A stretch of DNA of 20,917 nt from a virus. Positions 7,834 to 20,917 of the stretch are shown in pieces (positions within the stretch are counted from its first letter, which is position 1; every line of letters begins with the position of its first letter). The position numbers and the translations under genes were made by a program. The stretch lies in the IMG/VR virus record IMGVR_UViG_3300045944_000155, positions 1 to 20,917 of that record. The stretch is one strand, 5' to 3'. Under the pieces are notes generated by a model that saw nothing but the letters and a program-made list of their open reading frames with translations, had not been told where the DNA came from and did not search any database.

Positions 7834-8579
7834 AGGCCGTACCCCGATGAGGGCACCGATTGCCCTCCGATGTACCTAAACCCGAGAGCCCCTCCAAACG
7901 CCGCGTTTAGGATTGGCGCGGTCTTGTCCTTGCCGGTTAAGAACATGAACGCCTGATCGGTATCGGCCTGAGCGCGAGTTGAGTCGTACCCCTTCGCATC
8001 GAGGCTCTTGGTCTTGAGCAATCTCGATATCAACAGCCGGTCATAGAGCACGATGAAGCTGCCGTTATCGGGCGTGTCCGTGCACCCGGTCCAAGTCGGA
8101 TTCGTTGGATCCATCGCCCACCACTTGGATTGATATTCGAACTTGATGGTCTGCCCGGAAGCTGGGGGCTGGGGGAACAGCCAGAACTCGCCTTGGTTTA
8201 AACGGAAGGCGACCGTGATGCTGGTGGTGTTGGTCCCGAGGAGGTACTGCCACTCCTGGTTCGATACCGGACCTGCAAGCGGCTGCTGGCTGGAACGAAC
8301 CCACCCCGCCTGGTCGATCATGTAATTGAAATCAACCGGAAGCGGGTACTTGCCAGTATCCCCCGGCGCGGTCGTGATGGTGTGCTCGCGGTTTTGCTGC
8401 TGCCACTTCCACGCGAGTGCCAGCTCCTCGGCGGCGACCGCGAGCAGGGTTTTTAGCTGTACGAAGTAGTCAGCGGTCGAGCCGAACGGATCGGCTTCTG
8501 GACTAAGTCCAATCTCGACCGCGACCCGGTTCAGGATGTCATTGATGCTCGCCGACTTGGGGACGGCTGGCGCGGCCAT
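7830..8579 (-). CDS. Head-tail adaptor / tail tubular A-like protein (249 aa)
   Basis: The N-terminal helical part (SINDILNRVAVEIGLSPEAD, then FVQLKTLLAVAAEELALAWKW) followed by a beta-rich part (TGKYPLPVDFNYMIDQAGWV, GEFWLFPQPPASGQTIKFEY) and a C-terminal helical region with DRLLISRLLKTKSLDAKGYD is the typical order of podovirus adaptor proteins that bind below the portal. The phrase 'YPLP.DF..mi...w' followed by 'w.lfP.P..g.ti.feY.s' is very characteristic of that family. Its place, between a head-region gene and the nozzle gene, agrees. The ATG at 8579 follows the upstream TAG directly, with only a weak Shine-Dalgarno element. Confidence 0.8.
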   Translation of the reverse strand: MAAPAVPKSASINDILNRVAVEIGLSPEADPFGSTADYFVQLKTLLAVAAEELALAWKWQQQNREHTITTAPGDTGKYPLPVDFNYMIDQAGWVRSSQQPLAGPVSNQEWQYLLGTNTTSITVAFRLNQGEFWLFPQPPASGQTIKFEYQSKWWAMDPTNPTWTGCTDTPDNGSFIVLYDRLLISRLLKTKSLDAKGYDSTRAQADTDQAFMFLTGKDKTAPILNAAFGGALGFRYIGGQSVPSSGYGL

Positions 8580-9413
8580 CTAGGTTTCACGCGAAGCTCG
8601 GCGGCGCCGCTGCAATATCGGCGCATTGTCCACCGGAGCCGCTACCTCCGTAGCCCCTACCACCGGTTCGTCGCTCTCAGGCAAACCTAGTGCGTCTGGC
8701 GGGATGAACAAACCGCTGTCTTCAAGCGGCTTCTCCCCGTCGTCATCATCGTTCTCGTCGTCTTCTTCCTCTTCGTCCTCGGGCACTCGGCTCGGGCGCT
8801 CTAGCCCAACACTTGGCTGGAGCTTCGCAACCGCCGCCTGCAAGCCAGCAATTTGCTGGCTGAGCTCGGCAATCTTGAGGTCACGTTCCTGGAGCTTCCG
8901 CGCCAGCTCCTCCGCCGCCCGCGTATCGCCGGTCGCGGCGAGCCACGCTTTCGCCCGCTCTTTCAGGCCCGCGAGCCCAAAGATAGCCCCCAATCGGTTA
9001 TCCGGGATGCGCGAGAGCTGCTCGACGGTGCGGACGTTGAAATAAGCCAATTCATCGACTTGCGCGCGAGTGATAACCGCCCATTCAGCCAAGGGGGTAC
9101 CCTCGATGGGCTTCGTGGTCGTTCGCGTCTTGTACGCCTGATAATGCCGGGGAAACCGATCGATATCGGCAGGAGTTGCCTCCCGCGCGATGAAATTCGT
9201 TCGATCGCCTAAGACCCTGATCTCAACATGGTCGCGATCGATGTAAATCGGACGCCCGGCGGCGCGAGATTTACCCTCGTCCCGAACCGAGAGCGAGAAG
9301 AACTTGACCAGCAAGCTATCATCGCCCGGCTGAGGCCCCCGCTGGTACGCATCGGTGTTCTCGGTCGAGAACGCCATCTCGGTCAGTTCAAATCCAGCTT
9401 CTTCTGGTGGCAT
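8580..9413 (-). CDS. Head-region protein with acidic tail (277 aa)
   Basis: Residues about 33-160 match a protein that I have seen next to capsid genes in many phages: LLVKFFSLSVRDEGKSRAAG, then RPIYIDRDHVEIRVLGDR, RFPRHYQAYKT, EGTPLAEWAVITRAQVDELA, FNVRTVEQLSRIPD and LKERAKAWLAAT. The 'T.eQL..lpD' plus 'l...A..wl' part looks like a small helix-hairpin-helix-like unit. A coiled coil follows (about 163-199) and then an acidic run of Glu and Asp (about 211-227). The function of the family is not known to me. The start at 9413 is set by a strong AGGAGGG element lying across the upstream TAG stop. Confidence 0.65.
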   Translation of the reverse strand: MPPEEAGFELTEMAFSTENTDAYQRGPQPGDDSLLVKFFSLSVRDEGKSRAAGRPIYIDRDHVEIRVLGDRTNFIAREATPADIDRFPRHYQAYKTRTTTKPIEGTPLAEWAVITRAQVDELAYFNVRTVEQLSRIPDNRLGAIFGLAGLKERAKAWLAATGDTRAAEELARKLQERDLKIAELSQQIAGLQAAVAKLQPSVGLERPSRVPEDEEEEDDENDDDDGEKPLEDSGLFIPPDALGLPESDEPVVGATEVAAPVDNAPILQRRRRASRET

Positions 9414-9423
9414 TTAGGCCCTC

Positions 9424-9630
9424 CTACAGCGCTACAGGACGATTTTCCGACTGACCCGCCACCTCCGTACCCCTAGGGGCATAAGATCGCGGTCTATGGG
9501 AGAAAAGGGGGCAATTCGATGCAGTACACGCCTCGACCTGCTGCCGCCAAGTCCCCTGGCTCGCAAATGGGTCGTAGATGCATTCCTTGCACATCCGGTT
9601 AATCGCCGACCTCATACCACCCGCTTTCAT
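9424..9630 (-). CDS. Small four-cysteine protein (68 aa)
   Basis: The protein contains INRMCKECIYDPFASQGTW followed by RQQVEACTASNCPLFSHRP, giving a CxxC...CxxxxxC arrangement (C14, C17, C34, C40) likely to bind zinc. The pattern 'I..kC.eCiyDp...GtWR.QVeaCt...CPl...RP' recurs in small proteins of phages and bacteria; its function is unknown to me. The listed ATG lies 3 nt after the upstream stop but lacks a good Shine-Dalgarno sequence. An alternative ATG at 9615 (MRSAINRM) has a GGTGG element close before it. Both start points keep the whole cysteine domain. Despite its size, the conserved motif makes it a real gene. Confidence 0.7.
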   Translation of the reverse strand: MKAGGMRSAINRMCKECIYDPFASQGTWRQQVEACTASNCPLFSHRPRSYAPRGTEVAGQSENRPVAL

Positions 9631-9633
9631 GCT

Positions 9634-10251
9634 TTAACGCCCACGCGGACGGCCTCGACCACCCTTGGCGCGAGTATGCCGCTCCGATGCATCCTCCTCG
9701 GCGCGCCGCTCGGCCTCCTCGACCTCGGCCTCGGCCTCGGCGTCCGCTTTAGCCTCGGCCTCTTCCTCGTCCTCGGCCTCCTCGGCTTCCTTGGCGAGCT
9801 GCGCCTGCTCCTCCTCAAAGCCTTCCTCGCCCATCAGCAGCGTGCCGGCGACGGTCAGCGTGCCCCAGACCCGCGCACCCGAGGGAACGGTGAGCCCGGT
9901 ACGGTTGACGACACCGGTGATGAGCGCGCCACCCGGAGCAATCGCGCCCGCAGTGGTCACGAACTGGAGGGTGTCGTTGTTGTCCGCCCCCTGGAACGCG
10001 GCGATGCGGTTGGCGGGAGAGGTCGAGACCAACCCGATATGGCCCGAAGCCCCGTTGTACGGCATGTTGGCGGCGCCGTTAAACGTGGTATTCGGCCAGT
10101 CGCTCACCTTGGGGTCGTACCCCCCGGTGTTGATGCCTATGCCGGGCGCATTAGACCCGCCGCGATTCAGACCGCCCGACCACTGCGCGGCGGCAACCTC
10201 AGTCGTTCGTTGCTTCGCCGGGTCGACGAAGAAAGTCGGCAGATTAGACAT
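9634..10251 (-). CDS. Capsid-region protein with Ala/Glu coiled coil and AT-hook-like tail (205 aa)
   Basis: The N-terminal 140 residues are Gly/Asn/Thr-rich and beta-like (IGLVSTSPANRIAAFQGADN, VVNRTGLTVPSGARVWGTLT), which would suit a head decoration or fibre protein made just after the capsid protein. Residues about 142-192 switch abruptly to an Ala/Glu coiled coil encoded by repetitive DNA (many cctcgg units on the plus strand, about 9700-9790). The last residues, KGGRGRPRGR, are basic and contain an RGRP core like a minor-groove AT-hook. The ATG is preceded by a strong AGGAGGG 5 nt upstream. The decoration role is inferred from position; the family is not recognised. Confidence 0.55.
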   Translation of the reverse strand: MSNLPTFFVDPAKQRTTEVAAAQWSGGLNRGGSNAPGIGINTGGYDPKVSDWPNTTFNGAANMPYNGASGHIGLVSTSPANRIAAFQGADNNDTLQFVTTAGAIAPGGALITGVVNRTGLTVPSGARVWGTLTVAGTLLMGEEGFEEEQAQLAKEAEEAEDEEEAEAKADAEAEAEVEEAERRAEEDASERHTRAKGGRGRPRGR

Positions 10252-10260
10252 GTCGCCCTC

Positions 10261-10365
10261 CTACGTGGGGCCGTGCATCACGCGCCAGCCGATGAAGGCG
10301 AGCGCGATCAGCACGACTAAAATCGTCAGCCCCGTTTTCCAGAGCCCTTTCTTGTCGAACTTCAC
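10261..10365 (-). CDS. Tiny single-helix membrane protein (34 aa, GTG start)
   Basis: Directly after the capsid TAA a GTG at 10365 opens a 34-codon frame ending TAG at 10261. It reads MKFDKKGLWKTGLTILVVLI and ends ALAFIGWRVMHGPT. A short basic N-terminus is followed by one hydrophobic helix (residues about 11-26) and a brief polar tail, so an N-in membrane protein is likely. The stop overlaps the Shine-Dalgarno element of the next gene. The frame exactly fills the otherwise empty gap between two well-supported genes, and its amphipathic layout is not random-looking. No strong ribosome site is seen, so it would rely on coupling to capsid translation. Function unknown. Confidence 0.5.
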   Translation of the reverse strand: MKFDKKGLWKTGLTILVVLIALAFIGWRVMHGPT

Positions 10366-11340
10366 TTAAGGCGTGAAGTTAAACCGGCCCTGAAACTTCC
10401 GCCCCGACGTGGTCAGGTTACCCGCGAACGCGAGAATGCTGACCTCTGCATCTTGGTTAACCGCATAACGCTTGTTGGGCGAGAGCGGCACCATGTTCCG
10501 GTCCGCGTGCGGGCGGTAGTGGATGTAGTTCGTGTTCAGGAAGTAGGCGGTATTGGCCGCCGCACCCGTTCGGCCGAAATCGTAGATGCCGCCGTCCAGC
10601 ACCACGTCCGCGTCGATGAACTTCAACGACGGGAACCCGAGCTGCCCGACCTCGGGCGATTCGAACCGCTGCTGCGCCTGGAGCTTCGCGAGGTACGCGA
10701 GCCAGACCGAGTTCGACATCATGATCAGGTCGGTTCGATCGGGGCCTCGGGTCACGAGCGCCCAGAGCGAGTTCATGTCGGCCAGCATGGTCGCGGTCGC
10801 ACCGGCCTGAACCTTGTTCTGCCAGAACGTGAACGTCGCGCCGTTGATGCCCCCATAGGGAGCAAGCGCCGGGTTAGTGGGAAGCGCCGCGTTTAACCCG
10901 TCGAGCTGCTTACCGCCCGCCGCCGTGCCGTCGGAGTAAATCCCCTCCGCGATTAAGTTCGCCATCGTCGCTTCGGCAACGCTGATGCGCGCTTCGAGCA
11001 GGTCGATCATCTGCTCCTTGCCCGCGTTCTGAAGCTGTTCCAGTCCCGAGATGACGACCGGCACCGCTGCCTGCTTGATGGTGTACTCAGCCGCCGAGAT
11101 GACATCCGACACGCCGACCGGCAACAGGTCATAGCCCGAGTACCACCCGGCGTTCGCGTTCTCGGCGAAGGAGAGCTCTTGCAGGATTTTGCTGCCGCCC
11201 GAGAAGGTCTTAATGCGCCCTCGCATCGAGAGCTTCCGCAGGATGGCGTTGTTGTTGGTAACGTTGTCGGCGATTTTCTTCGTGCGAGACTCGATGGTCG
11301 TCGCGACGATATCGCTGATGTTGGCATTGGCGAAAGCCAT
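10366..11340 (-). CDS. Major capsid protein (324 aa)
   Basis: The sequence follows a well-known podovirus/siphovirus coat family. The N-terminus runs ISDIVATTIESRTKKIADNV, TNNNAILRKLSMRGRIKTFS, GGSKILQELSFAENANAGWY, SGYDLLPVGVSDVISAAEYT and IKQAAVPVVISGLEQLQNAG, with a later IDLLEARISVAEATM helix and a LIAEGIYSDGTAAGGKQLDG segment. Coat proteins of this type adopt the HK97 fold. The length is typical and it lies directly after the scaffold gene. It is preceded by a strong GGAGG element 7 nt before the ATG and by a roughly 200-nt leader with two 54-nt direct repeats, which may matter for the high expression a coat gene needs. Confidence 0.9.
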   Translation of the reverse strand: MAFANANISDIVATTIESRTKKIADNVTNNNAILRKLSMRGRIKTFSGGSKILQELSFAENANAGWYSGYDLLPVGVSDVISAAEYTIKQAAVPVVISGLEQLQNAGKEQMIDLLEARISVAEATMANLIAEGIYSDGTAAGGKQLDGLNAALPTNPALAPYGGINGATFTFWQNKVQAGATATMLADMNSLWALVTRGPDRTDLIMMSNSVWLAYLAKLQAQQRFESPEVGQLGFPSLKFIDADVVLDGGIYDFGRTGAAANTAYFLNTNYIHYRPHADRNMVPLSPNKRYAVNQDAEVSILAFAGNLTTSGRKFQGRFNFTP

Positions 11341-11382
11341 GGCGAATCCTCCACAGAAAATGGTTGGTTCTCTGCTGAGGTT

Positions 11383-11436
11383 CGCTGGGGCTCTAACAAC
11401 AGGCTTCGGGGATTAGCCCGATGGGCGCGGCCTGCG
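11383..11436. repeat. 54-nt direct repeat, copy 1 (scaffold-capsid spacer)
   Basis: This copy matches 11466-11519 at 49 of 54 positions by eye. Read on the transcribed minus strand it can fold as an outer CAGGC/GCCTG stem and an inner TCGGG/CCCGA stem around a CTAATC loop. There is no T-run, so it is not an ordinary terminator. It lies in the untranslated leader of the capsid gene. Confidence 0.8.
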
Positions 11437-11465
11437 AATTCTCAACGACTGGGTAGGCTCAAGCG

Positions 11466-11519
11466 CGCTGGGGCTCTAACGGCAGGCTTCGGGGTTCAGT
11501 CCGATGGGCGCGGCCTGCG
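11466..11519. repeat. 54-nt direct repeat, copy 2 (scaffold-capsid spacer)
   Basis: The second copy begins 83 nt from the first and lies close behind the scaffold stop. The outer CAGGC/GCCTG stem is kept, while the inner stem is reduced to TCGG/CCGA. Differences between copies are five single-base changes, so the duplication is fairly recent or constrained. Confidence 0.8.
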
Positions 11520-11539
11520 GCTGGCCTACGAAAAGTCTA

Positions 11540-12616
11540 TCACACGCTCGCCCGCGAAAGCTGCTCCTCAATCTCTTCCCGCAGACTTTTTTCGCCCGAC
11601 TTGACCGCCGCGCCACCCGGAGGGCTAATAACGCTGCTGGCGGCGTTTCTCTTACGCTGAACGCTCGTCGGAACGGCACCATTCCCCCCGTTCCCCGGCA
11701 TAGCTGGGGAGCCGCCGCCAGTGCCCCGTTTAGCGATCACCGAGCTCACCTGCGGGTCAATCTGACACGCGAGCTTGTACGCATCGGCGAGCGATAGGGG
11801 CTGGTTCCGCGCGGCGTAGAGGTCCATCAGGTCTGCCATCTGCAAGCGCACGTCTTCGAAGAACTCGGGATTCGTTCCGCGAAAGTGATCCAGCTCAGCG
11901 TCAATGCTCTGGTTCATCGCCTGCTCGCGGCGCTGCTCGGCCTGGTTTACCCGCGAGAGCAAGCTATCGACCGGCGCCAAGCGTTGGTTTAACAGCTCCT
12001 CGACCCGCTTCAGCTCGGGCGTCTGCGTGGGCGTGATACCGGCCAGCTCGCCGTCCAACAGCGCGATATCAACCCCGTAGTGTTTAACCAGTGCCGCCAT
12101 CCGCGCGGCTTTCTGCTGCGGGCTCCCAATGTTGAACACCGTCACGGTTTTCAACAGCGTATCCACCGCCTCGAACGGGTCGTTCGTCCCTTCGGCCTGC
12201 ATGATCGGCTGGTACGGCGCCACGACCGCGTGGAACCGCTCGGCGATACGTCGATGCTCGGTCGCGGCTTGAAGCGTCCGCGCAATCTCGTGCTCACGCT
12301 TCGAAATGTGCGCCTGCACCTCGGGCGGTACGGAGGCCCACTGCTCACGTAACGCGGGTGACCAACTCCGGGGCGCGCCCGGGGCGGAGACGGAAGCCGA
12401 GGCAGATGGCGTGTCAGTACCCGCCTCGGGCGTCTCCCTAACTTCCGCCTCCGCTTTCTCGCGAAGCTGCGAAGCCGTCTCATCGGCGGCGACCCGCTCC
12501 GCGCGCTTGGCTTCCGCCGGTGCGTCGCCGACGGGATCCCGCTCGGGCGTCTTGCTAATCGCTGCTTCTAAATCGGCCTTGAGCGTGTCTTCCTGCTCAA
12601 TGACGTTCGTGTTCAT
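11540..12616 (-). CDS. Scaffolding protein (358 aa)
   Basis: Acidic, low-complexity N-terminus (residues 1-80), then a segment with RSWSPALREQWASVPPEVQA followed by HISKREHEIARTLQAATEHR and a stretch containing VVAPYQPIMQAEGTNDPFEA. This 'sW....R..wa.lPpevq..i..Re.e...tl' order is characteristic of scaffold-like proteins encoded directly before the coat gene in many phages. A further helical region with MAALVKHYGVDIALLDGELA follows. The C-terminus is Gly/Pro-rich and then basic and helical (KSLREEIEEQLSRASV), as expected for a coat-binding helix-loop-helix tail. The ATG at 12616 overlaps the previous stop as ATGA and has GGAG about 8 nt upstream. Confidence 0.8.
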   Translation of the reverse strand: MNTNVIEQEDTLKADLEAAISKTPERDPVGDAPAEAKRAERVAADETASQLREKAEAEVRETPEAGTDTPSASASVSAPGAPRSWSPALREQWASVPPEVQAHISKREHEIARTLQAATEHRRIAERFHAVVAPYQPIMQAEGTNDPFEAVDTLLKTVTVFNIGSPQQKAARMAALVKHYGVDIALLDGELAGITPTQTPELKRVEELLNQRLAPVDSLLSRVNQAEQRREQAMNQSIDAELDHFRGTNPEFFEDVRLQMADLMDLYAARNQPLSLADAYKLACQIDPQVSSVIAKRGTGGGSPAMPGNGGNGAVPTSVQRKRNAASSVISPPGGAAVKSGEKSLREEIEEQLSRASV

Positions 12617-12924
12617 TTTTTCTCCACCGCTCGAATCAGGGCTTCGATACGCTCGCGCTTATCAGCCGACGTTTGCCCTTCCATGCGGGCGCGCATCGCG
12701 CGTGCTCGGTTGATGTAATCCTGCGGGGTGTAGTCACCCGCTGGCTCGACGTTGTTCCGCCGGTTGTGGTCGTGCAGCCGCGAGCGCGAGGTGATGACCG
12801 TGCCGTCAACGGGTGAGACGAACGGCTTGATGTCATCGAGCACCGTCGGCGCGGATGCGCGTTCTCGACGCTGCTTAACTTCAATCAGCTTCAGCGTCTT
12901 TCGATCTTGCCTGTACGTCGGCAT
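12613..12924 (-). CDS. Small basic protein between portal and scaffold (103 aa)
   Basis: From ATG 12924 the product begins MPTYRQDRKTLKLIEVKQRR and contains the segment DDIKPFVSPVDGTVITSRSR followed by LHDHNRRNNVEPAGDYTP. The pattern 'ikp..sp.dG..I.SRs.hr.H.R.n.v...gd' is familiar from small phage proteins encoded beside the portal gene; no function is proven to my knowledge. It overlaps the portal 3' end by 44 nt in another frame. A longer frame to 12978 exists, but its extra 18 residues are portal coding sequence read out of frame. A purine-rich AAGGCGAAG lies shortly before the chosen start. Confidence 0.65.
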   Translation of the reverse strand: MPTYRQDRKTLKLIEVKQRRERASAPTVLDDIKPFVSPVDGTVITSRSRLHDHNRRNNVEPAGDYTPQDYINRARAMRARMEGQTSADKRERIEALIRAVEKK

Positions 12925-15067
12925 TGAGCTTCGCCTTTGCTGCCTCTTTGATGATTTCGTTACGGGTCGCGCCAGCATCGAGCTTGGCCTTCGCGGCTTC
13001 TTTGACGATTTCGTTTCGCGTCTCCAAGGTGTCTTTGCGCACCTCGGCTTCAGCGGTCGTCAACGTCTCCTCGGCGTTTAACCGCGCATCGGTGATGCGC
13101 TCCTCGGTATCAGCCTGGAGCTTCGCTTGAATCTTGGTGAGCTCGGCCTGGAGCTCGGCCTGGAGTATGCCGATGTCATGTCGGCTCTCGGCCATGAAGG
13201 TCTCGAAGTCCGCCTGCTTGTCGGTTAAACGCTTCTGCATCTCGCCCGCGAAGTTCGCCTGTATCTGCTCCATCGCGTGCTGATGTTTTGCATCTTCCAA
13301 CTGCATCGCGGCTTGAGCCTTAATCTCCTCGGGCGAAGGCTGCTTCGGTTGTTGTTGCTGCGCTTGCGCCGCTTGGTTCGCTTGCTCGATCGCGCGGTCG
13401 AGCACGCCCTCCATCTCGTCCCCGCCTCGGAATGCCGCGAGCGTCCACTGCAAGAACTGGAGCAATACCGGCACCGAGCCGGGTAGCGCCTGCGCCGCTT
13501 GGAAAGTCTTCTCCAGCATCACCGAAAGCGTTTGCACGTAAGCCGTCCGCTCGGCTTGCAGCTCCGCGTAGTCGACCATCGACATCGACTCGGGCTGGAT
13601 GCGAATACGCAGTCGCGATACATCGGGATTCTTCAGTAGCTCCAGCGCTTGCGGCAGAAGCTCTTGGTCGGGCGAGAACTGCATCGCCGACATACCAGCA
13701 ATAGTCTGCGCCTCGAAGTGCCGACAGATGACCTCGGCCTTGAGTGCGATTAGGTCCGACGCAAACCGCGCGAACTCTTTTTGCATCGCCTGCATGCGCG
13801 CGGAAGCGAACTTCACTTTCTGCTTAGACTGCCCGACACCCTCGTACTGGTTATCGAGCTGCCCGCGCATGATGTCGGAGAACCCCGTCACCTGATAAAG
13901 CAACTGAATTTGCTCATCACGTAATTCACGGAGCTTGTCTAGCGCCGCGACGATGTCAGCTAAGGGGAGCCAATCCACCACACCCTGCAAGCCGCCCTGC
14001 TCGCCCAGCAAGGCCCAGTTATCTACCGGGATCAGATCGTTCTCGGTGCCCTCTTTAAACATGCGCTGCACGCCATCCGCGTTCTTGTCGTAAACGCCGA
14101 CCGCCTTGACCGCTTTCGTCAGAATACCGATACGGGTCTGCAGCAAGTCGATGTCGTTGTAGAGGTCTTGCGCCAGGTGATAGTCGGGCGTCGGGAGGTA
14201 GAGGGTCGTCGTCGGATTCGCGATGAAGAACTTCGGACACGGGAAAAAATTCACGAGCTGCAGCGGGTCTTCTTTCGTGTCGAGCAGGTCATCAACGTGT
14301 TCATTGAACCAGACGACCTGGCGACGAGGCTTATCCCATATCTCCCACACTTCAGCTTGCAGCCACGCGGATTTCTCTTCTTTGCTGCTTGCTTTCTCCT
14401 CGCTCTCGATGCCACGCGCGAGATACTCGAGACCGTCGGCGTCAACTTTGGGGAATCTTGCCTTGACCTGGTCTTTGGTGAGGTAGCTCTTAAACGCGAG
14501 CCAACGCATGTCGCTCCACGTTCTAGTCCAGCTCCAGCGCACATCACCCCAGTAGACGTAATCTAGGGGCGCGTCTTCCCACCGGAGATGCTCAGTCTCG
14601 GTGCGGTCTATTCTGGTGACGGTATCGATCTTGGCGGCGTATCTGACTCTGGCAACACCTAGACCCGAGAGCAGCCGATCAAGTAAGACGTTACACAACA
14701 CGTCGTCATAACGCTCGGTGTCATCGGCGATGTCATTGTTGAGCGTGCGCTCCAGCATGTTGGCGGCGACTCTCGCCACGTCGTCGGCCGAGTCTAGGTA
14801 CGCCCGCGCGACCTCGACCTGGGGGACCTGCCCGTAGAGCAGCTCGTACATCGTGCGGACGTTCGAGTTAAACAGGTTGAGGCGTTTAGCTTCGATCGTG
14901 CCGATGGTGAGGCGGTCATCGGACTTACGGCTGTCGATGTAACGCGAGATGATCTTGTCGGACTGCTTGTGCCATTTCTTCAGCATCTCGTGCGAGGCAT
15001 CAAGCTCGGCCTTCCAGTAATCCTGGAGATTCTCGAAATCAGACCGTGATTCGATCTGCGCGGACAA
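12881..15067 (-). CDS. Portal protein (728 aa, TTG start)
   Basis: The N-terminal half has portal character: a long helical start (DYWKAELDASHEMLKKWHKQ), RLNLFNSNVRTMYELLYGQV, a stem-like region with DVLCNVLLDRLLSGLGVARV, then PLDYVYWGDVRWSWTRTWSD and the segment NFFPCPKFFIANPTTTLYLP. The middle part TGFSDIMRGQ and the following QSKQKVKFASARMQAMQKEF are typical of podovirus portals. Residues about 570-728 are a long Gln/Ala/Glu coiled coil containing a near-exact 18-residue repeat around NEIVKEAAKAKLDAGATR, encoded at 12923-12967 and 12977-13021. The frame opens with TTG at 15067: an in-frame TAA lies two codons upstream, and GGAGGG sits 7 nt before the TTG, which decides the start. It forms the dodecameric DNA gate. 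Confidence 0.85.
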   Translation of the reverse strand: MSAQIESRSDFENLQDYWKAELDASHEMLKKWHKQSDKIISRYIDSRKSDDRLTIGTIEAKRLNLFNSNVRTMYELLYGQVPQVEVARAYLDSADDVARVAANMLERTLNNDIADDTERYDDVLCNVLLDRLLSGLGVARVRYAAKIDTVTRIDRTETEHLRWEDAPLDYVYWGDVRWSWTRTWSDMRWLAFKSYLTKDQVKARFPKVDADGLEYLARGIESEEKASSKEEKSAWLQAEVWEIWDKPRRQVVWFNEHVDDLLDTKEDPLQLVNFFPCPKFFIANPTTTLYLPTPDYHLAQDLYNDIDLLQTRIGILTKAVKAVGVYDKNADGVQRMFKEGTENDLIPVDNWALLGEQGGLQGVVDWLPLADIVAALDKLRELRDEQIQLLYQVTGFSDIMRGQLDNQYEGVGQSKQKVKFASARMQAMQKEFARFASDLIALKAEVICRHFEAQTIAGMSAMQFSPDQELLPQALELLKNPDVSRLRIRIQPESMSMVDYAELQAERTAYVQTLSVMLEKTFQAAQALPGSVPVLLQFLQWTLAAFRGGDEMEGVLDRAIEQANQAAQAQQQQPKQPSPEEIKAQAAMQLEDAKHQHAMEQIQANFAGEMQKRLTDKQADFETFMAESRHDIGILQAELQAELTKIQAKLQADTEERITDARLNAEETLTTAEAEVRKDTLETRNEIVKEAAKAKLDAGATRNEIIKEAAKAKLNADVQARSKDAEAD

Positions 15068-15096
15068 GTGTTAACCCTCCCCCGAAGAGTGACGGG

Positions 15097-16461
15097 TCAC
15101 ACCCGCCCTTCGTTTAAACGCATCCTACGCTGATCGTGCTCGTCAAATAACTCCTGCAGGGTCCACCCGAGGGTCATGGTGTCGGGGCTGACCTCGCGGG
15201 ATAGCGGGGGGAGCTCGACCTTGAGCGCCATCTTGACGACCAGCGACATGTACCTAAACGCATCCGCCCCGTTGCTGGACCAGTCATGCAGCGGGGTATC
15301 GGCATAGGCTTTGTTTTTCTCGTCGTAGCGGCGACGGTAGGCCCGGAGAGCCTCTATGCCTGAGTAGCACGCGGAGCTGTTGATGGTGAGTCTCGGGAGA
15401 ACATACCGGCCCGCGTCGATGCCGTGCTGAACGCGGACGTTCGGCGCGATGCGAACGTTGAAGTTGTCCTGCTGGAGCTGCTCGACGGTGGTGCGACCCG
15501 TCTGAAGCGTATGCGCTCGGGCGTCATGCGGGAGCCACAGGGTGTCGTAACGGTAGGGCTTCGCGCGCAGATGCGTGACGTAGTGGGCGAGAGGTTTTGA
15601 TTGGTTCTCGTAGTAGTCGATGACGCGGGGGCCATCGGGGAGAACCTGCCAGAACCAGAACGCGGTCGAGTCGCTGAACCCTAAGTCAGCAGCGACGTGG
15701 ACAGGGTAGTTGAGGTCCGGCGGGTAACGGGTCGGGTGGATGTGCTGAGAGCGCTCCAGGTCAGTGATGAGGTCGGCGTAGTAAGTACCCGGCACGGCGG
15801 CGTCGAAGTCACACTCAAGCTCGCGGGCGTACTGAGCGGCGGACATCTGCTCGCGTAGCTCCTGGAGCTCCTCCGGCGGGAGGACGTGGGTCTCGGACGC
15901 CTTGAACGTGCGGTGGAACCAGTGAGGGGAGGTGCGAGCGCGAACGACGGTCGCGTGGAAATGGTTCTTGCCCTTGGCGGTGCCGATGAAGACGGCGAAG
16001 CCACGGCGGTCGGCTAGGGTCGGCAAGACTACCTCGGGCCACAGCGACGGCTTGGTGTCGCCGTATTCATCGAGGACTACCCCGTCTAAGTAGAGGCCCC
16101 GGAGGGCGTCGGGGTTATCCGCTCCGTACAAGGTGACGTACGCGTCGTTGAACAGCTCGACCCGCAGGTCTGACTCCCGGACGCGGCGGGCGAAAGATTG
16201 GGTCGAGTCCTTGAGGTACTGCCACGCCACGTCCTTCGCCTGGCGATAGAACGGCGCGATGTAGGCGTACCGGGGATGTTGACGGGGGTTGTACAGCGCC
16301 CGGAGCACGAGGTCGTTGACGGCGGCGACGGTCTTACCCACCCGGCGGTGGGCGACGATCGCGGCCCAACGTTCGTTGCGTTGATGAAAGTCGACGAATT
16401 GGGTTCTTGGCTGGTACTCGAAACGTGCAACGGGGGGCGGGATACGCTGCGCTACAGCCAT
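15097..16461 (-). CDS. terL: Terminase large subunit (454 aa)
   Basis: ATPase and nuclease motifs are all visible. Walker A is AHRRVGKT (residues 37-44), Walker B is GVVLDEYG with D131-E132, and the coupling motif is FIGTAKGKN (158-166). The RNase H-like nuclease part has acidic residues D259 (in AADLGFSDSTAFWF), D313 (in LPHDARAHTLQTG) and D400 (in HDWSSNGADAFRYM). Length is normal for the family. The protein drives DNA packaging through the portal and cuts the concatemer. The ATG at 16461 has no good Shine-Dalgarno element. A sigma70-like promoter about 40 nt upstream suggests that terL and everything leftward can be transcribed independently of the small subunit. Confidence 0.95.
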   Translation of the reverse strand: MAVAQRIPPPVARFEYQPRTQFVDFHQRNERWAAIVAHRRVGKTVAAVNDLVLRALYNPRQHPRYAYIAPFYRQAKDVAWQYLKDSTQSFARRVRESDLRVELFNDAYVTLYGADNPDALRGLYLDGVVLDEYGDTKPSLWPEVVLPTLADRRGFAVFIGTAKGKNHFHATVVRARTSPHWFHRTFKASETHVLPPEELQELREQMSAAQYARELECDFDAAVPGTYYADLITDLERSQHIHPTRYPPDLNYPVHVAADLGFSDSTAFWFWQVLPDGPRVIDYYENQSKPLAHYVTHLRAKPYRYDTLWLPHDARAHTLQTGRTTVEQLQQDNFNVRIAPNVRVQHGIDAGRYVLPRLTINSSACYSGIEALRAYRRRYDEKNKAYADTPLHDWSSNGADAFRYMSLVVKMALKVELPPLSREVSPDTMTLGWTLQELFDEHDQRRMRLNEGRV

Positions 16462-16500
16462 TTTACATTAAACCATTTTCAGACTCATAACCGTGCTATT

Positions 16501-16529
16501 GTTATAACACCGTGTTATTTACATGTAAA
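16501..16529 (-). promoter_or_regulatory. Sigma70-like promoter with embedded operator palindrome, facing terL
   Basis: On the minus strand TTTACA and TATAAC are separated by 17 nt, close to the sigma70 consensus. The spacer contains the perfect palindrome ATAACACcGTGTTAT (16504-16518), and the -35 box is part of a second palindrome, TTTACATGTAAA (16518-16529). Such overlap is typical of an operator where a repressor blocks polymerase. A start near 16494 would leave a leader of about 33 nt to the terL ATG. The surrounding 16462-16552 gap holds nothing else I can identify. Confidence 0.55.
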
Positions 16530-16552
16530 AATCTACAAAAAGGAAGGAGATT

Positions 16553-16801
16553 CTAGGGAGGCGGTAGCATGTTTGGATCTTCAACATTAAATAGCGCAAA
16601 CAATACTAAAACGCTATGCGGCGGGCTATAGTGAAGCTCTACTAACACGGGATACGTGTCAGGATAGAGGGAAGGTAACAAAACTAGAAACTCGTTGGTA
16701 ACAGCCTGCAGGTCGGTCGCCTCGATCACTTTTACGAGGTAAATCGGTGACGGATCGCCCTGCGGCGGGCTAGGTAGATTCGGGGGGCGGAGGTAGGGCA
16801 T
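16553..16801 (-). CDS. Small Cse60-like protein between the terminase genes (82 aa)
   Basis: The core reads IYLVKVIEATDLQAVTNEFL, then VLVELHYSP and HSVLVLFALFNVED. The order 'v.V....dL...vNefL...' followed by 'v.i.y.......lv.f.l' resembles the small proteins known as Cse60 in sporulating bacteria and related short phage proteins of unknown role. The resemblance is by eye and weak. The ATG at 16801 lies inside the end of the small terminase gene (32-nt overlap in another frame), with GGAG about 9 nt upstream. The N-terminus MPYLRPPNLPSPPQGDPSP is proline-rich. An extra small gene between the two terminase genes is plausible in phages. Confidence 0.55.
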   Translation of the reverse strand: MPYLRPPNLPSPPQGDPSPIYLVKVIEATDLQAVTNEFLVLLPSLYPDTYPVLVELHYSPPHSVLVLFALFNVEDPNMLPPP

Positions 16802-17360
16802 CGAGGGTCACTCCGGTGGGAAGTTGGTCGAGCTCCGTACGGGGGAGAAGCTGGTGGTCGAACTGGATCTTGATGACTTGCGGAGCTAGCGAGTTCTGAT
16901 CGTATAGTCCGGTCATCTTGTTAATAACTTCAATGGCTTGGATGCTAGTTTTCGGCTCGTCGTGCTCGTTGTTGACCGCAATTCGGTAGAGCATGGCAAT
17001 CCGGGTGGCGACGTTCGGACCGTCTAGGGCCTGCTGGAAGTGCCTAGAAAGCGCCAGGAGGCGTTTGACCTCGGGACGCTTGAGGATGGGATGGGGGTGC
17101 TTGTAGCCCGCCTTGGCGGCCGCCTGGAGAGGCGAGAGGCCATTGACTAGGGCGCGGACGAGCTCGACGTGGCGGGGTTTACAGCGGGCCTTCTGGTCGT
17201 TTAGGGCTCGTTCGATATGGTGTAAGTTCTTGATGTATAGGTTGTTTCCTGGATGGGTGTTATCCAGGAGGAACTCGGGCGGGAGCCAGCGGTAGTCGTC
17301 GGGATCGTAGTGGCGGTGGAGGACGTCCTCGCCATGGGCTTCCAGTTCACGACGCGTCAT
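16770..17360 (-). CDS. terS: Terminase small subunit (196 aa)
   Basis: Residues about 60-105 form a helix-turn-helix candidate: HVELVRALVNGLSPLQAAAK, then AGYKHPHPILKRPEVKRLLA. The wording 'fv..l..G.s...AA..AGY.h....l.rp.V...l' is standard for small terminases that recognise phage DNA. A later segment TRIAMLYRIAVNNEHDEPKT followed by SIQAIEVINKMTGLYDQ matches the central oligomerisation part seen in this family. The C-terminus is proline-rich (DALPPPPEST) and probably contacts the large subunit. It is the first gene of the leftward block, next to the divergent control region. No good Shine-Dalgarno element precedes the ATG. Confidence 0.85.
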   Translation of the reverse strand: MTRRELEAHGEDVLHRHYDPDDYRWLPPEFLLDNTHPGNNLYIKNLHHIERALNDQKARCKPRHVELVRALVNGLSPLQAAAKAGYKHPHPILKRPEVKRLLALSRHFQQALDGPNVATRIAMLYRIAVNNEHDEPKTSIQAIEVINKMTGLYDQNSLAPQVIKIQFDHQLLPRTELDQLPTGVTLDALPPPPEST

Positions 17361-17530
17361 GAGCAGAACAAGTAGTTGATTTCGGTCGAATCGTCAACGA
17401 CTTAAGGGCCAAATCCAAAACTCGAAAAATGTCTGGGGACCTTCTGTAAATTTTTCCGTTGCTGTTTCAAAAACCCGAAAGTTTTCATCAAATTTCCCAT
17501 TTAAATCAGTAGTTTACGAGTGACTCTTCA

Positions 17531-17724
17531 CGTTTAAACGCCCCCAAAGGTGAGTGCTCGGTAAGTTCTTGATCGTAAACGACTATGCGTTTAAACGTGT
17601 AAACCACAGGCTAGCTAAGTAGCTGATTAACCTAGAGTTTTGGTTATAATCCAGTGTTATCGCAATAACATTTAATTATGCGCACGTATAAATAGCACTA
17701 ATCCGTGCTGTCCAGGTTTAAACG
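17531..17724. repeat. Three GTTTAAACG palindromic boxes
   Basis: CGTTTAAACG occurs at 17531-17540 and 17588-17597, and GTTTAAACG at 17716-17724. The same 8-bp core GTTTAAAC also appears at 8196-8203 and 15112-15119 inside coding sequence. Three copies of an AT-rich 8-mer within 200 nt are unlikely by chance and could be protein-binding sites. Confidence 0.5.
17643..17670. promoter_or_regulatory. Operator/promoter-like motif upstream of terS
   Basis: GTTATAATCCAGTGTTAT (17643-17660) matches the terL upstream motif at 16501-16518 in 15 of 18 positions. It runs into a second palindrome, TGTTATcgcaATAACA (17655-17670). On the minus strand it supplies a TATAAC -10 box, though the -35 is poor. On the plus strand it contains a perfect TATAAT (17645-17650). 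It probably binds the same regulator as the terL site. Confidence 0.45.
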
Positions 17725-17777
17725 TCCACACGCGGTCGAGCATGGGTCAAAACATACCCAAAACGCTATCCAAATCG

Positions 17778-17809
17778 GGAATAACGCGTTATCCGATTAG
17801 GGAATAACG
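17778..17809. promoter_or_regulatory. ATAACGCGTTAT palindrome with repeated GGAATAACG
   Basis: A perfect 12-bp palindrome ATAACGCGTTAT lies at 17781-17792. The word GGAATAACG occurs at 17778-17786 (as GGGAATAACG) and again at 17801-17809. The half-site ATAAC is shared with the sites at 16504-16518 and 17643-17670, so this may be a further operator of the same kind. Confidence 0.4.
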
Positions 17810-17904
17810 AAAAGGGTCAGTGGTTAAAAAATGACCAGCGAAAAGGTAAACGGTTTTTCTTACTGTTTTCAACGAGTTAGGCCTTTTTTTGGTCCAAAAA
17901 ACAG

Positions 17905-17960
17905 AAAAGTAAAAAAAAACTTCAATAAAAACAAGGCGGTAGCGGCCGCGAGGATCCGCC
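17905..17960 (-). terminator. Candidate intrinsic terminator on the minus strand
   Basis: A GC-rich imperfect hairpin (outer GGCGG/CCGCC, inner GCGGCCGC, 17935-17960) stands isolated in AT-rich DNA. Read leftward it is followed by TTGTTTTTATTG and then a run of nine T. It would stop leftward transcripts entering from the rightward operon side. An origin hairpin is the alternative reading. Confidence 0.4.
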
Positions 17961-18051
17961 AACTACCTCTATATAGAACTCCCTAAATACAACTTAAAGT
18001 GGTCACTAACCCCCATTTTTGACTATCGAAATTTTTTTTCTAATCTTGTTA

Positions 18052-18172
18052 TTTGTTACCTTTAGACTAAAAACAGACCGAAAATCAATAACTTAACCAG
18101 GTAACAAACCTCGCCGGCCTTGTTACCCCCGCCTAATTTCCGTAACCTTTTCAGTAACTTAAAGGTAACAAG
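18052..18172. repeat. Four alternating TTGTTACC / GGTAACAA sites forming two inverted pairs
   Basis: TTTGTTACC (18052-18060) pairs with GGTAACAAA (18100-18108), and CTTGTTACC (18119-18127) pairs with GGTAACAAG (18164-18172); each arm is 9 bp and the flanking base also matches within a pair. The outermost arms match over 12 bp (TTGTTACCTTTA at 18053-18064, its complement at 18160-18171). A further GTTACC lies at 18218-18223. They lie just upstream of the rightward operon and look like binding sites for a dimeric regulator or a replication initiator. Confidence 0.6.
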
Positions 18173-18226
18173 CCACCACCGCCCGCTCCTCATGCCGTTA
18201 CTTAATTACGTTTAACCGTTACCGTT

Positions 18227-18272
18227 TTGTGACATGAGTCTCAGTATAAATACATGCTATAGCATACGTTTC
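18227..18272 (+). promoter_or_regulatory. Probable promoter area of the rightward operon
   Basis: TTGTGACA (18227-18234), TATAAA (18245-18250) and TGCTATAGC (18255-18263, an extended -10-like word) lie 55-100 nt before the first gene. No pair has ideal 16-18 nt spacing, so the exact promoter is uncertain. The word ATGCTATAGCAT (18254-18265) is a perfect 12-bp palindrome over the -10-like element and may be an operator. Confidence 0.4.
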
Positions 18273-18311
18273 TCGCACGCGTGCACCTCGCGCGCAGTCA
18301 TCAAACCACTC

Positions 18312-18327
18312 AGGAAACCATCACATG
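18312..18327 (+). promoter_or_regulatory. Ribosome binding site shared with the next gene, copy 1
   Basis: The 16-nt string AGGAAACCATCACATG, running from the Shine-Dalgarno element through the start codon, is identical to that at 18906-18921. It fixes the start of the metallopeptidase gene at 18325 and suggests matched translation of the two products. Confidence 0.75.
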
Positions 18328-18906
18328 ACGACTCAAAATTGGGACCGCGAAGCATGGCTGACTAGTCTTGCATCGCTAATTCAAGACGACGTTTTGGCCC
18401 GTCAAGGTATCGCGCTGATCGACTATCGGGTCTGTCTCGGCTTTCCCCCCAACTCCCGCAAAGCACTCTCGCGTACGCTCTCGCGTGCTCAATCCAAAGA
18501 CGGCCACGCCGAAATATTCATCAGTCCCGAGTTCGGCCCGCAAGACGCCATCAAGATCGCCGTTCACCTCACCCATGAGATGCTACACGCGACCCTGGAC
18601 ATGTCGACCGCGCATGCCGCGCCTTTTAGCATGTATGCCCGTCTTATTGGCTTTGAGCGCCCGTATCACAAGCCGATCCCATCCGCTCACCTGACCAGTC
18701 AGTTAGCCGCCCTAGTCCAATCAGTCGGACCATTGCCCCACGCGTCGATCACCCTGCCCGCGTCTCAACCGACGCGACTCCTTAAGATCACGTGTACCGC
18801 GTCATGCGGACTAGTGCTCCGTGCGTCGCTCGCGCAGACCAAACGTTTCGATCGTCTCGCCGCATGCCCTATCAATGGGTGCGCGGGTCACCTTGTCGTC
18901 AACTAA
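18325..18906 (+). CDS. SprT-like zinc metallopeptidase (193 aa)
   Basis: The active-site motif is HLTHEMLHATLD, giving H84-E85-x-x-H88. A third ligand candidate is H97 in AHAAPFSMYARLIGF, which corresponds to the 'GHG..F' element after HExxH in SprT proteins. Near the C-terminus two cysteine pairs, C157/C161 (CTASC) and C181/C186 (CPINGC), form a zinc ribbon like that of SprT-family proteins. Eukaryotic relatives (Spartan) cleave DNA-crosslinked proteins; the role of bacterial and phage members is poorly known. It is the first gene of the rightward operon, 12 nt before the AAA+ gene, with the same ribosome site. No signal peptide or membrane segment is seen, so it acts in the cytoplasm. Fold assignment is from motifs; substrate unknown. 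Confidence 0.8.
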   Translation: MTTQNWDREAWLTSLASLIQDDVLARQGIALIDYRVCLGFPPNSRKALSRTLSRAQSKDGHAEIFISPEFGPQDAIKIAVHLTHEMLHATLDMSTAHAAPFSMYARLIGFERPYHKPIPSAHLTSQLAALVQSVGPLPHASITLPASQPTRLLKITCTASCGLVLRASLAQTKRFDRLAACPINGCAGHLVVN

Positions 18907-18921
18907 GGAAACCATCACATG
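18906..18921 (+). promoter_or_regulatory. Ribosome binding site shared with the previous gene, copy 2
   Basis: The same 16-nt start region is placed directly at the stop codon of the first gene (TAA 18904-18906), fixing the ATPase start at 18919. Exact conservation of the spacer as well as the purine core points to duplication or selection, not chance. Confidence 0.75.
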
Positions 18922-20166
18922 CAAACTCTCAACCTTGATCAACGTCTTGCGCTTAAGCGCGCCCTTATCCAAGCGGGCATACCGATCCCAGCCAGCGCGA
19001 CCGATGCCGATCTGCAGCGTCTCGCGCCGCAGTCCGCGCCAGTCGCGTCGCCGACAGTCGAGCCAGTCGCGTCGCCGACAGTCGAGCCAGTCGCGTCGCC
19101 GACAGTTGAGCCAGTCGCGCCGCCGACAGTTGAGCCAGTGGCAGATCCGATCGCATCCGAGGTTGCGCGCATCCGTGCGTTGCCGATCGATGCGATGCTC
19201 CAAACGATCGAAACCCTAGTCACTGAGAGTCACGCGCGCCGTATCCCCACACGCGTGGGCCAGTCGGGCGAGCGTCATCTGATCCGCGATGTTTTCCAAG
19301 TAAACGTTAACGGCCACTGCCACACGCACGGCAGTCCCGACGCGCCCGCGATCGACCCCAGTTACGTGTATGACCCGCAGACCCTTAACATCGCCGTGGC
19401 GTGCATCGAGTCAGGGTCAAATCTCTTCTTAGGCGGTCCGCCGGGAACGGGCAAAAGCACCCTAGCCCAGCAATTGGCCGCTAGGCTCGGTCGCCCGCTA
19501 GTTGAGATTGCGTTCACCTTATCGACCGAAACGGACACGCTGATCGGGCAGGAAGTCCCGGCACCATCGGGTCACGAGTCTGGGACGGTATGGCGTGACG
19601 GTGTGCTACTCGCGGGCATACAGATCCCCTACGCGATCATCGTTCTTGACGAGATATCGCTCGCGCGCCATGGGCTAGTCGCCACCTTACAACCGCTACT
19701 CGATAGCCGCCGCACCGTGACCCGTGAAGACGGCACGCGCATACCGTGCGCTCCCGGTGTGGTCTTTATCGCCGCCGATAACTCGATCGGGCATGGTGAC
19801 GATACCGGCCGATACGCTGGCGTCTCGCAGTTAAATGCGGCACTACTCGATCGGTTTACTGCCGTGATCGATGTCGACTATCTGCCGCGAGACGAGGAGA
19901 TCAAGGCGCTCCAAGCGCGTACAGAGTGCACGCCCAAGCTCGCGTCGAACGTTGTCGACTTTTGCCAGCTAACGAGAGTCGCGAGCCATAACGGTGACAT
20001 CAGTCAACCGATCGGATTCCGACGCTTGGTCGCGCTGATCACTCTGCTACAGCAAGGCGTCACGCTATCCCATGCGTTACGCACCGCGATCTATAACCAC
20101 GTGACCCCACTCGATCGCGAGGTGGTCACGCAAATCGCGGTCGGTCATTTTGGAGCATCGCAATGA
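18919..20166 (+). CDS. CobS/MoxR-type AAA+ ATPase with N-terminal repeat (415 aa)
   Basis: Walker A is GGPPGTGKST (172-181), Walker B is IIVLDEIS with D244-E245, sensor 1 is N288 in AADNSIGHGD, the arginine-finger region is LLDRF (R312), and sensor 2 is in GFRRL (368-369). The segments LIGQEVPAPSG and TGRYAGVSQLNAALLDRFTA resemble CobS, the ATPase subunit of aerobic cobaltochelatase, within the MoxR group. Residues 41-75 are a PVASPTVE repeat, absent from ordinary CobS as far as I know, and the protein is longer than CobS (about 330). MoxR-type ATPases work with VWA-domain partners to remodel proteins. Its stop overlaps the CobT-like start (ATGA), which implies a complex. No CobN-like chelatase subunit is visible, so cobalamin synthesis is not implied. 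Confidence 0.85.
   Translation: MQTLNLDQRLALKRALIQAGIPIPASATDADLQRLAPQSAPVASPTVEPVASPTVEPVASPTVEPVAPPTVEPVADPIASEVARIRALPIDAMLQTIETLVTESHARRIPTRVGQSGERHLIRDVFQVNVNGHCHTHGSPDAPAIDPSYVYDPQTLNIAVACIESGSNLFLGGPPGTGKSTLAQQLAARLGRPLVEIAFTLSTETDTLIGQEVPAPSGHESGTVWRDGVLLAGIQIPYAIIVLDEISLARHGLVATLQPLLDSRRTVTREDGTRIPCAPGVVFIAADNSIGHGDDTGRYAGVSQLNAALLDRFTAVIDVDYLPRDEEIKALQARTECTPKLASNVVDFCQLTRVASHNGDISQPIGFRRLVALITLLQQGVTLSHALRTAIYNHVTPLDREVVTQIAVGHFGASQ
19039..19134 (+). repeat. 24-bp in-frame tandem repeat, four copies
   Basis: Four units starting CCAGTCGCG and ending GTCGAG or GTTGAG encode PVASPTVE, PVASPTVE, PVASPTVE and PVAPPTVE, followed by a partial unit. The first two are identical in DNA, so expansion is recent. 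The product is an extended Pro/Val-rich linker between an N-terminal helical piece and the ATPase core; copy number may vary between relatives. Confidence 0.9.
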
Positions 20167-20917
20167 TCCGCGCAGACGAGTACACGCAAGCGGCGCGAGA
20201 CGCGTTCACGGCGCTAGTGCAAGACGTGACCGGTAAGAAAGTCTATACAACCGTCGCGACTCACCCATCGGCGATCGCGGCGGTCGAGTGGAAAGTCAGC
20301 ACGGCGATCCATGCGACGCTGTACCTTCCCGCGATGCATCCTGACCAGCGTCTCACCCGCCAACATGCGGACGGTCTAGCGGCGCTGTGGTTACACGAGG
20401 CGGGTCACGTGCTGTTCACCGACAGTCAAGCATTCGGTGAAGCCTATCAACGTTTCGGCAAGGGCGGCGCGCACTTGATGAATGCCTTAGAAGACGCGCG
20501 CATGGAACGCGAGCTTATCAACGCCGCCAAGCGCGGCACCCATGGCGCCGAGTCGCTCCTCGCGCGCTTAGTTGAGACGCTGAACCGAAAGGCGCCAGTT
20601 AACGGCGAGACGTTCCCATGGGCGCTAGCCTACATCGGCCGCGCCAAACTCGGCGCGCCCTTGAAGCATGCGGACGCGTTACGCGCCAAGATGGATCCCC
20701 ACTTGGGCAAGCTACTCGACCGCGCCCTAGATGACCTACAGCACGCGACGTGCACGCGTGACATATTGCCGATCGTCGAACGACTAGTCGATGCTCTTAA
20801 GTCACCGCACGGTGACAAGCCGCAAGCGGGCCAGGGTGACCCACAAGGCGAGCCGCAAGCGAGCCAGGGTGACGCCCAGGGTGACGCCCAGGGTGAGCCA
20901 CAAGCGAGCCAGGGTGA
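20163..20917 (+). CDS. CobT-like protein with HEAGH metallopeptidase motif, N-terminal part (cut by window edge)
   Basis: The frame is open from ATG 20163 to the window end, 251 residues seen. LAALWLHEAGHVLFTDSQAF holds H78-E79-x-x-H82, and about 28 residues later LMNALEDARMERELINAAKR supplies acidic residues (E110, D111) typical of CobT-like and DUF2201-type zincin-VWA proteins; the phrase 'NALED.R.Ere' is a hallmark of phage CobT-like products. From residue about 220 a Gln/Gly/Asp/Pro-rich repeat linker begins, as in CobT, where an acidic linker precedes the VWA domain. The VWA domain itself would lie beyond the window and is not seen. The ATGA overlap with the ATPase gene suggests equal synthesis and direct partnership. 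Whether it is an active protease or a scaffold is unknown. Confidence 0.75.
   Translation, partial: MIRADEYTQAARDAFTALVQDVTGKKVYTTVATHPSAIAAVEWKVSTAIHATLYLPAMHPDQRLTRQHADGLAALWLHEAGHVLFTDSQAFGEAYQRFGKGGAHLMNALEDARMERELINAAKRGTHGAESLLARLVETLNRKAPVNGETFPWALAYIGRAKLGAPLKHADALRAKMDPHLGKLLDRALDDLQHATCTRDILPIVERLVDALKSPHGDKPQAGQGDPQGEPQASQGDAQGDAQGEPQASQG
20817..20917 (+). repeat. In-frame repeats in the CobT-like linker
   Basis: Related 24-nt units begin at 20817, 20850 and 20895 (the last cut by the edge), encoding KPQAGQGD, EPQASQGD and EPQASQG. Between them are shorter GDPQG/GDAQ units, including two copies of GCCCAGGGTGAC. The array runs off the window, so its full length is unknown. Confidence 0.8.

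Follow-up and report, generated by a model that had tools for sequence, protein, structure and literature searches.

In MoxR-vWA systems, a VWA docking domain is coupled to an AAA+ ring motor. Phage cobS and cobT are among the auxiliary genes most often listed under "vitamin B12". According to a 2021 paper on tailed viruses of archaea, cobT is wrongly labeled a peptidase, and the viruses are proposed to hijack host CobN (PMC8651126). The excerpted text of a comparative genomic study of jumbo phages (Viruses 2021) describes a MoxR-vWA pair and lists SprT apart, as a lone protease (PMC7824862). Proteases of the Wss1/SPRTN type, known from DNA-protein crosslink repair, are activated by DNA and work together with an AAA+ unfoldase, p97/Cdc48 (PMC4559962). 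The DNA analyzed here (the window), 20,917 bases long, is an IMG/VR contig (IMGVR_UViG_3300045944_000155) from a tailed phage that has not been cultured; it carries a SprT-like gene, a CobS-like AAA+ ATPase gene, and a CobT-like gene in that order on its plus strand. This cassette, real and conserved, is a version of the phage MoxR-vWA-metallopeptidase pair with a third gene, and it is undescribed as far as the searched literature shows, a full-text search on SprT, CobS, and phage having returned co-mentions only as unrelated entries. What is new is SprT as a third component and the contrast between the two active sites. The two zincins of the cassette behave oppositely, with the CobT site never lost and the SprT site repeatedly lost.

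The initial annotation of the window had placed three consecutive open reading frames (ORFs) here, the last two joined by an ATGA overlap, and this arrangement was confirmed, with the overlap at 20163-20166. The contig breaks inside CobT. A sister contig, IMG/VR 3300045931_000089 (L002), was the only one returned by single-protein scans of IMG/VR viral contigs; it is 100% identical over window positions 8325-20917 and extends 1.7 kb further, completing a CobT of 608 amino acids with HEAGH near its N terminus, a long repeat linker, and a C-terminal VWA domain. The features of the cassette are listed below.

18325..18906, plus strand: SprT-like protein, 193 amino acids (PHROG 6361; tblastn; AlphaFold2 [AF2] model)
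18574..18588, plus strand: SprT HEMLH motif, residues 84-88, with the third His at residue 97 (sequence)
18793..18879, plus strand: C-terminal zinc ribbon of SprT, including C157, C161, and C181 (alignment)
18919..20166, plus strand: CobS-like (MoxR-type) AAA+ ATPase, 415 amino acids (Pfam AAA_5, PHROG 249, NCBIfam PD_CobS, PDB 9ujv)
19435..19458, plus strand: CobS Walker A motif GPPGTGKS, residues 173-180 (sequence)
20163..20917 (contig end), plus strand: CobT-like protein, first 251 amino acids (full 608 amino acids at L002:11839-13665; VWA, CobT_C, PDB 9uka)
20394..20408, plus strand: CobT HEAGH motif, residues 78-82, on the leading helix of a pair of long helices (sequence, AF2)
20481..20507, plus strand: CobT NALEDARME motif, residues 107-115 (alignment)

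The CobS-like protein matches Pfam AAA_5 (E=1e-22), PHROG 249, labeled "porphyrin biosynthesis" (E=1e-48), and NCBIfam PD_CobS (2.8e-31, yet below the cut-off), and in profile comparison it matches the CobS of PDB 9ujv at 1.9e-74. G173, G176, G178, and K179 of its Walker A motif are invariant among phage CobS proteins. Its N-terminal part contains low-complexity VEPVASPT repeats (residues 42-76). The initial annotation had expected a VWA domain beyond the contig end, and the extension on L002 bears this out: the full CobT ends in a VWA domain with a metal-ion-dependent adhesion site (MIDAS; DGSGSMG), and both VWA (26.3 against 23.8) and CobT_C (22.4 against 21) exceed their Pfam cut-offs. A MoxR-type gene thus lies next to a VWA gene with an N-terminal HExxH domain, as in the MoxR-vWA(metallopeptidase) pair. 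The Pfam CobT N-terminal domain (PF06213) scores 10.7 in the window protein versus a cut-off of 26.1, and profile comparison matches the window CobT to the PDB CobT 9uka at 1.1e-41. A CobT-like HEAAH protein of IncC plasmids passes the PF06213 cut-off with 26.6, and homology of the window's CobT N-terminal domain to cellular CobT is therefore likely. The CobT linker (20800-20917), in which the window contig breaks, is Q/G/D-rich with a GDAQGEPQASQ repeat.

In the N-terminal domain of CobT, the sole invariant residues among 44 diverse phage sequences (15-30% identity to the window) are H78, E79, H82, N107, E110, and D111. H78, E79, H82, and E110 form the gluzincin pattern of HExxH plus a downstream Glu on a second helix, E110 being a candidate third zinc ligand. 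In the AF2 model of this domain (predicted local distance difference test [pLDDT] 92), helices 66-85 and 88-122 follow a three-strand sheet, and the modeled placement of the invariant residues on two long helices would be the arrangement expected of a gluzincin. The HExxH motif is present in 69 of 76 phage CobT ORFs, and of the 7 ORFs without it, all but one are truncated 5' by the contig; the remaining one, L034, is split and has HECGH in its N-terminal part. By comparison, HExxH is absent from 80 of 80 cobaltochelatase CobTs of the Alphaproteobacteria, the one bacterial group sampled, which have S, M, or R at those columns and retain both Glu residues of VEQARVE. The column tally against these proteins was conditioned on HExxH; the 69 of 76 is the unconditioned count. 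The HExxH of CobT noticed in the initial annotation is thus conserved in phages, and an invariant HExxH with N-x-x-E-D, lost in the alphaproteobacterial CobTs examined, argues that the peptidase label is right. In six further loci (L175, L177, L178, L179, L181, and L187), CobT is split into an N-terminal HELLH ORF and a separate VWA ORF, which suggests that the protease and VWA parts may be able to act as separate chains.

Profile searches for the domains named in the initial annotation returned AAA_5 and VWA, but SprT stayed below its Pfam cut-off. The window protein scores 13.8 bits against a PF10263 gathering score of 25.6, and the best cassette member, L188, reaches 24.7. SprT was identified instead through PHROG 6361 (E=4.5e-14) and tblastn matches to 162 phage records, most among the matches listed being annotated "SprT-like protease". 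It has the zincin ligand set of the Spartan family (H84, E85, and H88, with H97). Its AF2 model (pLDDT 85; predicted template modeling score 0.84) aligns with abylysin 4jiu at a TM(target) of 0.56 but an E value of 0.19, and a sequence search of the PDB with SprT returned no match. Among 54 deduplicated cassette SprTs, the zinc-ribbon Cys and R151 columns are invariant or nearly so; C157, C161, and C181 are invariant in alignment A9, and R8, E9, H139, Q148, T150, and R151 are also invariant among the cassette SprTs aligned.

The catalytic motif of SprT has a different fate. It is lost in 11 of 18 deduplicated cassettes collected with CobS as the anchor (intact in 7) and, counting all deduplicated cassettes, intact in 43 of 54 and lost in 11. 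Loss rates were taken from the CobS-anchored set (alignment A5) because the pattern of the SprT-anchored scan (A7) contains HE..H. The degenerate motifs take at least six forms (GALAH, AQLCR, SQLCR, IQLCL, HGLCA, AMLCH, and RELAH among them), and five changes are placed on the CobS tree, at least three of them forced by well-supported branches. SprTs outside the cassette, retrieved by motif-independent patterns, have HExxH intact in 80 of 80 cases, and none of the 80 has CobS or CobT within 5 kb. The loss in 11 of 18 cassettes implies that SprT catalysis is dispensable in the cassette, and with the CobT motif and the zinc ribbon kept, the conserved part of SprT is its fold plus the zinc ribbon. 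The idea of two zincin metallopeptidases acting as a pair, put forward in the initial annotation, was dropped on account of this loss, which the annotation itself had named as a refuting outcome.

The cassette recurs across IMG/VR. A SprT-anchored scan recovered 80 loci. In 8 of them, the contig ends too early to show the following gene, and in each of the other 72, SprT is followed directly on its strand by CobS. A CobS-anchored scan gave 28 viral loci, the window's phage included, about 27 of which have SprT directly before CobS and, if the contig is long enough, CobT behind it. Stop and start codons of the cassette genes often overlap, as in L025. The mixed SprT alignment A1 was too divergent for scanning, and a wider CobS alignment (A3), with SprT in 2 of 80 loci, suggested a rare link before the closer alignments A5 and A7 revealed a dedicated cassette lineage. 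The co-occurrence of the three genes proposed in the initial annotation therefore holds within the cassette lineage, but not outside it, where SprT stands apart and many CobS/CobT pairs lack it. About 104 cassette contigs are of a single terminase/portal type (PHROG 1216 for the portal and PHROG 38 for the large terminase subunit [TerL]), from which the window's portal (PHROG 12082, Mx8-like) and TerL (PHROG 2) differ, while the gene order and the divergent placement of the cassette are the same. The window is thus a second, unrelated structural lineage and independent evidence for the cassette. Among five cultured phages examined, none has CobS/CobT beside SprT; the cultured relatives BUCT555 and vB_OspP_OH, related through structural or terminase genes, have no annotated cassette, and a profile search yielded just a poor SprT match, in vB_OspP_OH and with internal stops.

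Two relatives of the window, L017 (homologous portal and major capsid protein) and L024 (homologous TerL), lack SprT but have CobS-CobT placed divergently as in the window. In maximum-likelihood (ML) trees, the window SprT and the window CobS plus CobT fall outside the main cassette clade (support 97 and 100), and the latter lie near SprT-less pairs. SprT may therefore have been added to CobS-CobT on two or more occasions. One ancestral cassette shared by the window and the L025-type phages was considered; it is disfavored by the ML trees and not rejected by the approximately unbiased (AU) test. The initial annotation had also reported an identical start region for the first two genes, and AGGAAACCATCACATG, 16 bases long, indeed has two exact copies in the window, one at 18312 and one at 18906, in the leaders of SprT and CobS; extended to 20 nucleotides, the copies agree at 19 of 20 bases. 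No further copy was found in the window even with three mismatches allowed (0.12 expected by shuffling). Such a duplicated leader would fit an insertion, if one took place. The leaders and the surroundings of the cassette are listed below.

18308..18327, plus strand: first copy of the duplicated 20-nucleotide translation leader, ACTCAGGAAACCATCACATG (sequence repeat)
18902..18921, plus strand: second leader copy, at the CobS start (sequence repeat)
17361..18307, strand not assigned: AT-rich divergent intergenic region of about 0.95 kb with palindromic CGTTTAAACG sites, probably the cassette promoter region
17531, 17588, 17715, and 15111 in the window and 13957, 13973, and 14030 in L002: CGTTTAAACG/GTTTAAAC sites
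15097..16461, minus strand: terminase large subunit, divergent from the cassette (PHROG 2, E=6.8e-37)
12881..15067, minus strand: portal protein, Mx8-like (PHROG 12082, E=2.8e-144; 41% identity to Myxococcus phage Mx8)

Copies of the CGTTTAAACG palindrome, or of its core GTTTAAAC, are concentrated between genes, upstream of SprT and downstream of CobT, with 12 matches at one mismatch allowed versus 0.67 expected, and the clusters are possible operator or replication sites. On L002, CobT is followed by about 470 bases without a long ORF (13666-14134), in which GGGAGACGCCCATGCCCTACCC forms a short tandem repeat and GTTTAAAC occurs at three sites ahead of the next ORF. The minus strand of the window encodes terminase, portal, capsid, and further structural-type proteins. 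Among the remaining genes, the 543-amino-acid product of 6008-7639 carries the PHROG 5107 label "amidase" (E=4e-75), but it is encoded among tail-type genes and so may be structural; the 495-amino-acid product of 1981-3468, with a lysozyme/transglycosylase-like N terminus (PHROG 24990, unnamed) and a coiled-coil-like region, is possibly an internal virion protein.

The explanation that we favor, and to which we give an even chance, is that the cassette encodes an ATP-driven protein-remodeling and proteolysis machine in which CobS is the motor, CobT the protease, and SprT a targeting or adaptor subunit. CobS would form an AAA+ ring, and CobT would dock on it through the C-terminal VWA domain while carrying an N-terminal gluzincin-type metalloprotease (HExxH plus N-x-x-E-D). 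SprT would direct the complex, probably toward DNA-bound proteins, through its zinc ribbon and SprT fold, its own catalysis being optional when CobT is present. The phage could use such a machine in takeover, replication, or recombination, to remove proteins from DNA or to process them there, whether these are its own or those of the host. The cassette stands first in a transcription unit that runs away from the terminase-portal genes, so its products are probably made before the virion proteins, and in L025-type phages, exonuclease, Sak-like annealing protein, and SSB-like genes lie downstream on the same strand. The initial annotation was thus right on the combination of genes and probably right on proteolysis, and a targeting subunit is a more likely role for SprT than a second necessary protease. 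A bolder version makes the cassette a DNA-directed three-part AAA+ protease, a counterpart of SPRTN-p97, that recruited SprT more than once and repeatedly discarded its catalysis, with cobaltochelatase CobT derived by active-site loss; we offer it tentatively, as possible but doubtful. Repeated loss of the SprT site, confined to cassette members, suggests a new kind of modular protease machine and a way in which an enzyme may turn into an adaptor.

Several points weigh against the favored explanation. Foldseek searches of the PDB with the CobT and SprT models gave nothing significant (best E values 0.2 and 0.1), zincins heading both lists. Under the AU test, one origin for the window cassette and the others stays compatible with the data (p=0.147 and 0.249), and because the roughly 104 contigs are one lineage, the number of loci is not independent evidence. 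DNA binding by SprT is predicted from family resemblance and early expression from gene orientation; protein cleavage by phage CobT, complex formation, and the substrates are inferred.

Other roles would also account for parts of the evidence. CobS-CobT could be a MoxR-vWA chaperone with a peptidase arm acting on head or tail proteins in virion assembly, SprT assisting or processing structural proteins. The cassette does adjoin terminase genes, and the excerpted text of the jumbo-phage study notes in group 2.2 phages a MoxR-vWA pair that includes an N-terminal metallopeptidase, proposes that it serves virion assembly and processing, and cites the MoxR-vWA precedent of Acidianus two-tailed virus (PMC7824862). 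In both lineages, however, terminase, portal, and (in contigs that show it) capsid are encoded on the other strand, and the L025-type cassette shares its strand with the recombination-type genes named above; SprT-family proteins elsewhere work on DNA-bound proteins, and IncC plasmids, which have no virion, carry a CobS/CobT pair by recombination genes. The assembly role is therefore given a real but minor chance. An auxiliary metabolic role, in which CobS and CobT of the virus would work with the host's CobN to raise vitamin B12 production and SprT is unrelated, draws on the homology to the PDB cobaltochelatase subunits and has been published for archaeal tailed viruses (PMC8651126) and likewise proposed for cyanophages. 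CobN (PF02514) was found in none of 30 cassette contigs, although these are fragments, may be incomplete, and leave room for a CobN of the host, nor in the 0.65 kb past CobT on L002, and the large ribonucleotide reductase subunit (PF02867) was found in none of 23. In addition, CobS scores 108.9 versus a cut-off of 558.55 for the CobS equivalog (TIGR01650), the invariant CobT HExxH is the motif that bona fide alphaproteobacterial CobTs have lost, and the SprT linkage would have no reason. A vitamin B12 role for the cassette, already disfavored in the initial annotation, is unlikely, and to the scenario with host CobN we assign a very slight probability.

SprT might also be a separate protease for DNA-bound proteins that merely shares an operon with CobS-CobT, as would suit the 80 of 80 non-cassette SprTs without CobS/CobT and the many phages with CobS/CobT and no SprT. 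The unbroken adjacency in the cassette lineage (72 of 72), the overlapping stop and start codons, and an active-site loss that is confined to cassette members and spares the remainder of the protein make such independence improbable. Finally, the machine could inactivate a host defense complex whose protein SprT recognizes; its early-type position, the diverse and fast-changing catalytic motif of SprT, and the use of MoxR-vWA pairs in biological conflict systems (PMC7159879) agree with such a role. But SprT has an invariant zinc ribbon and fixed residues, not a hypervariable surface, PADLOC yielded weak P-loop matches alone, and counter-defense is accorded a small probability.

Among known systems, the cassette resembles that of the group 2.2 jumbo phages, in which, in the excerpted text, an AAA+ motor stands by a VWA protein whose N-terminal part is a metallopeptidase domain; that text mentions no linked SprT, concerns jumbo myoviruses, and proposes virion assembly (PMC7824862). 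With the cobaltochelatase CobNST (PDB 9uka and 9ujv), it shares homologous AAA+ and VWA domains encoded by adjacent genes, but the phage CobT has an intact HExxH, SprT is a third gene, and no CobN was found with the cassette. IncC plasmids (for example, pEC3-1/2a) encode a CobT-like VWA protein with HEAAH near recombination genes, but without SprT and with CobS and CobT separated by those genes. In this plasmid (L368, 7908-15901), the CobS-like and CobT-like genes flank ssb, bet, a lambda-type exonuclease, and DUF3150, and CobS-like matches occur in 2277 plasmid records. The phage SprT-like proteases of PHROG 6361, from Arthrobacter, Microbacterium, and Bordetella phages, belong to the family of the window SprT, but in those checked, HExxH is always intact and CobS/CobT is not nearby. 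Like SPRTN/Wss1 with p97/Cdc48, the cassette would combine a SprT- or WLM-type minigluzincin with an AAA+ unfoldase on DNA-bound proteins; the likeness is one of analogy, as the AAA+ clade differs, and the cassette has a second zincin, CobT, whose motif is never lost.

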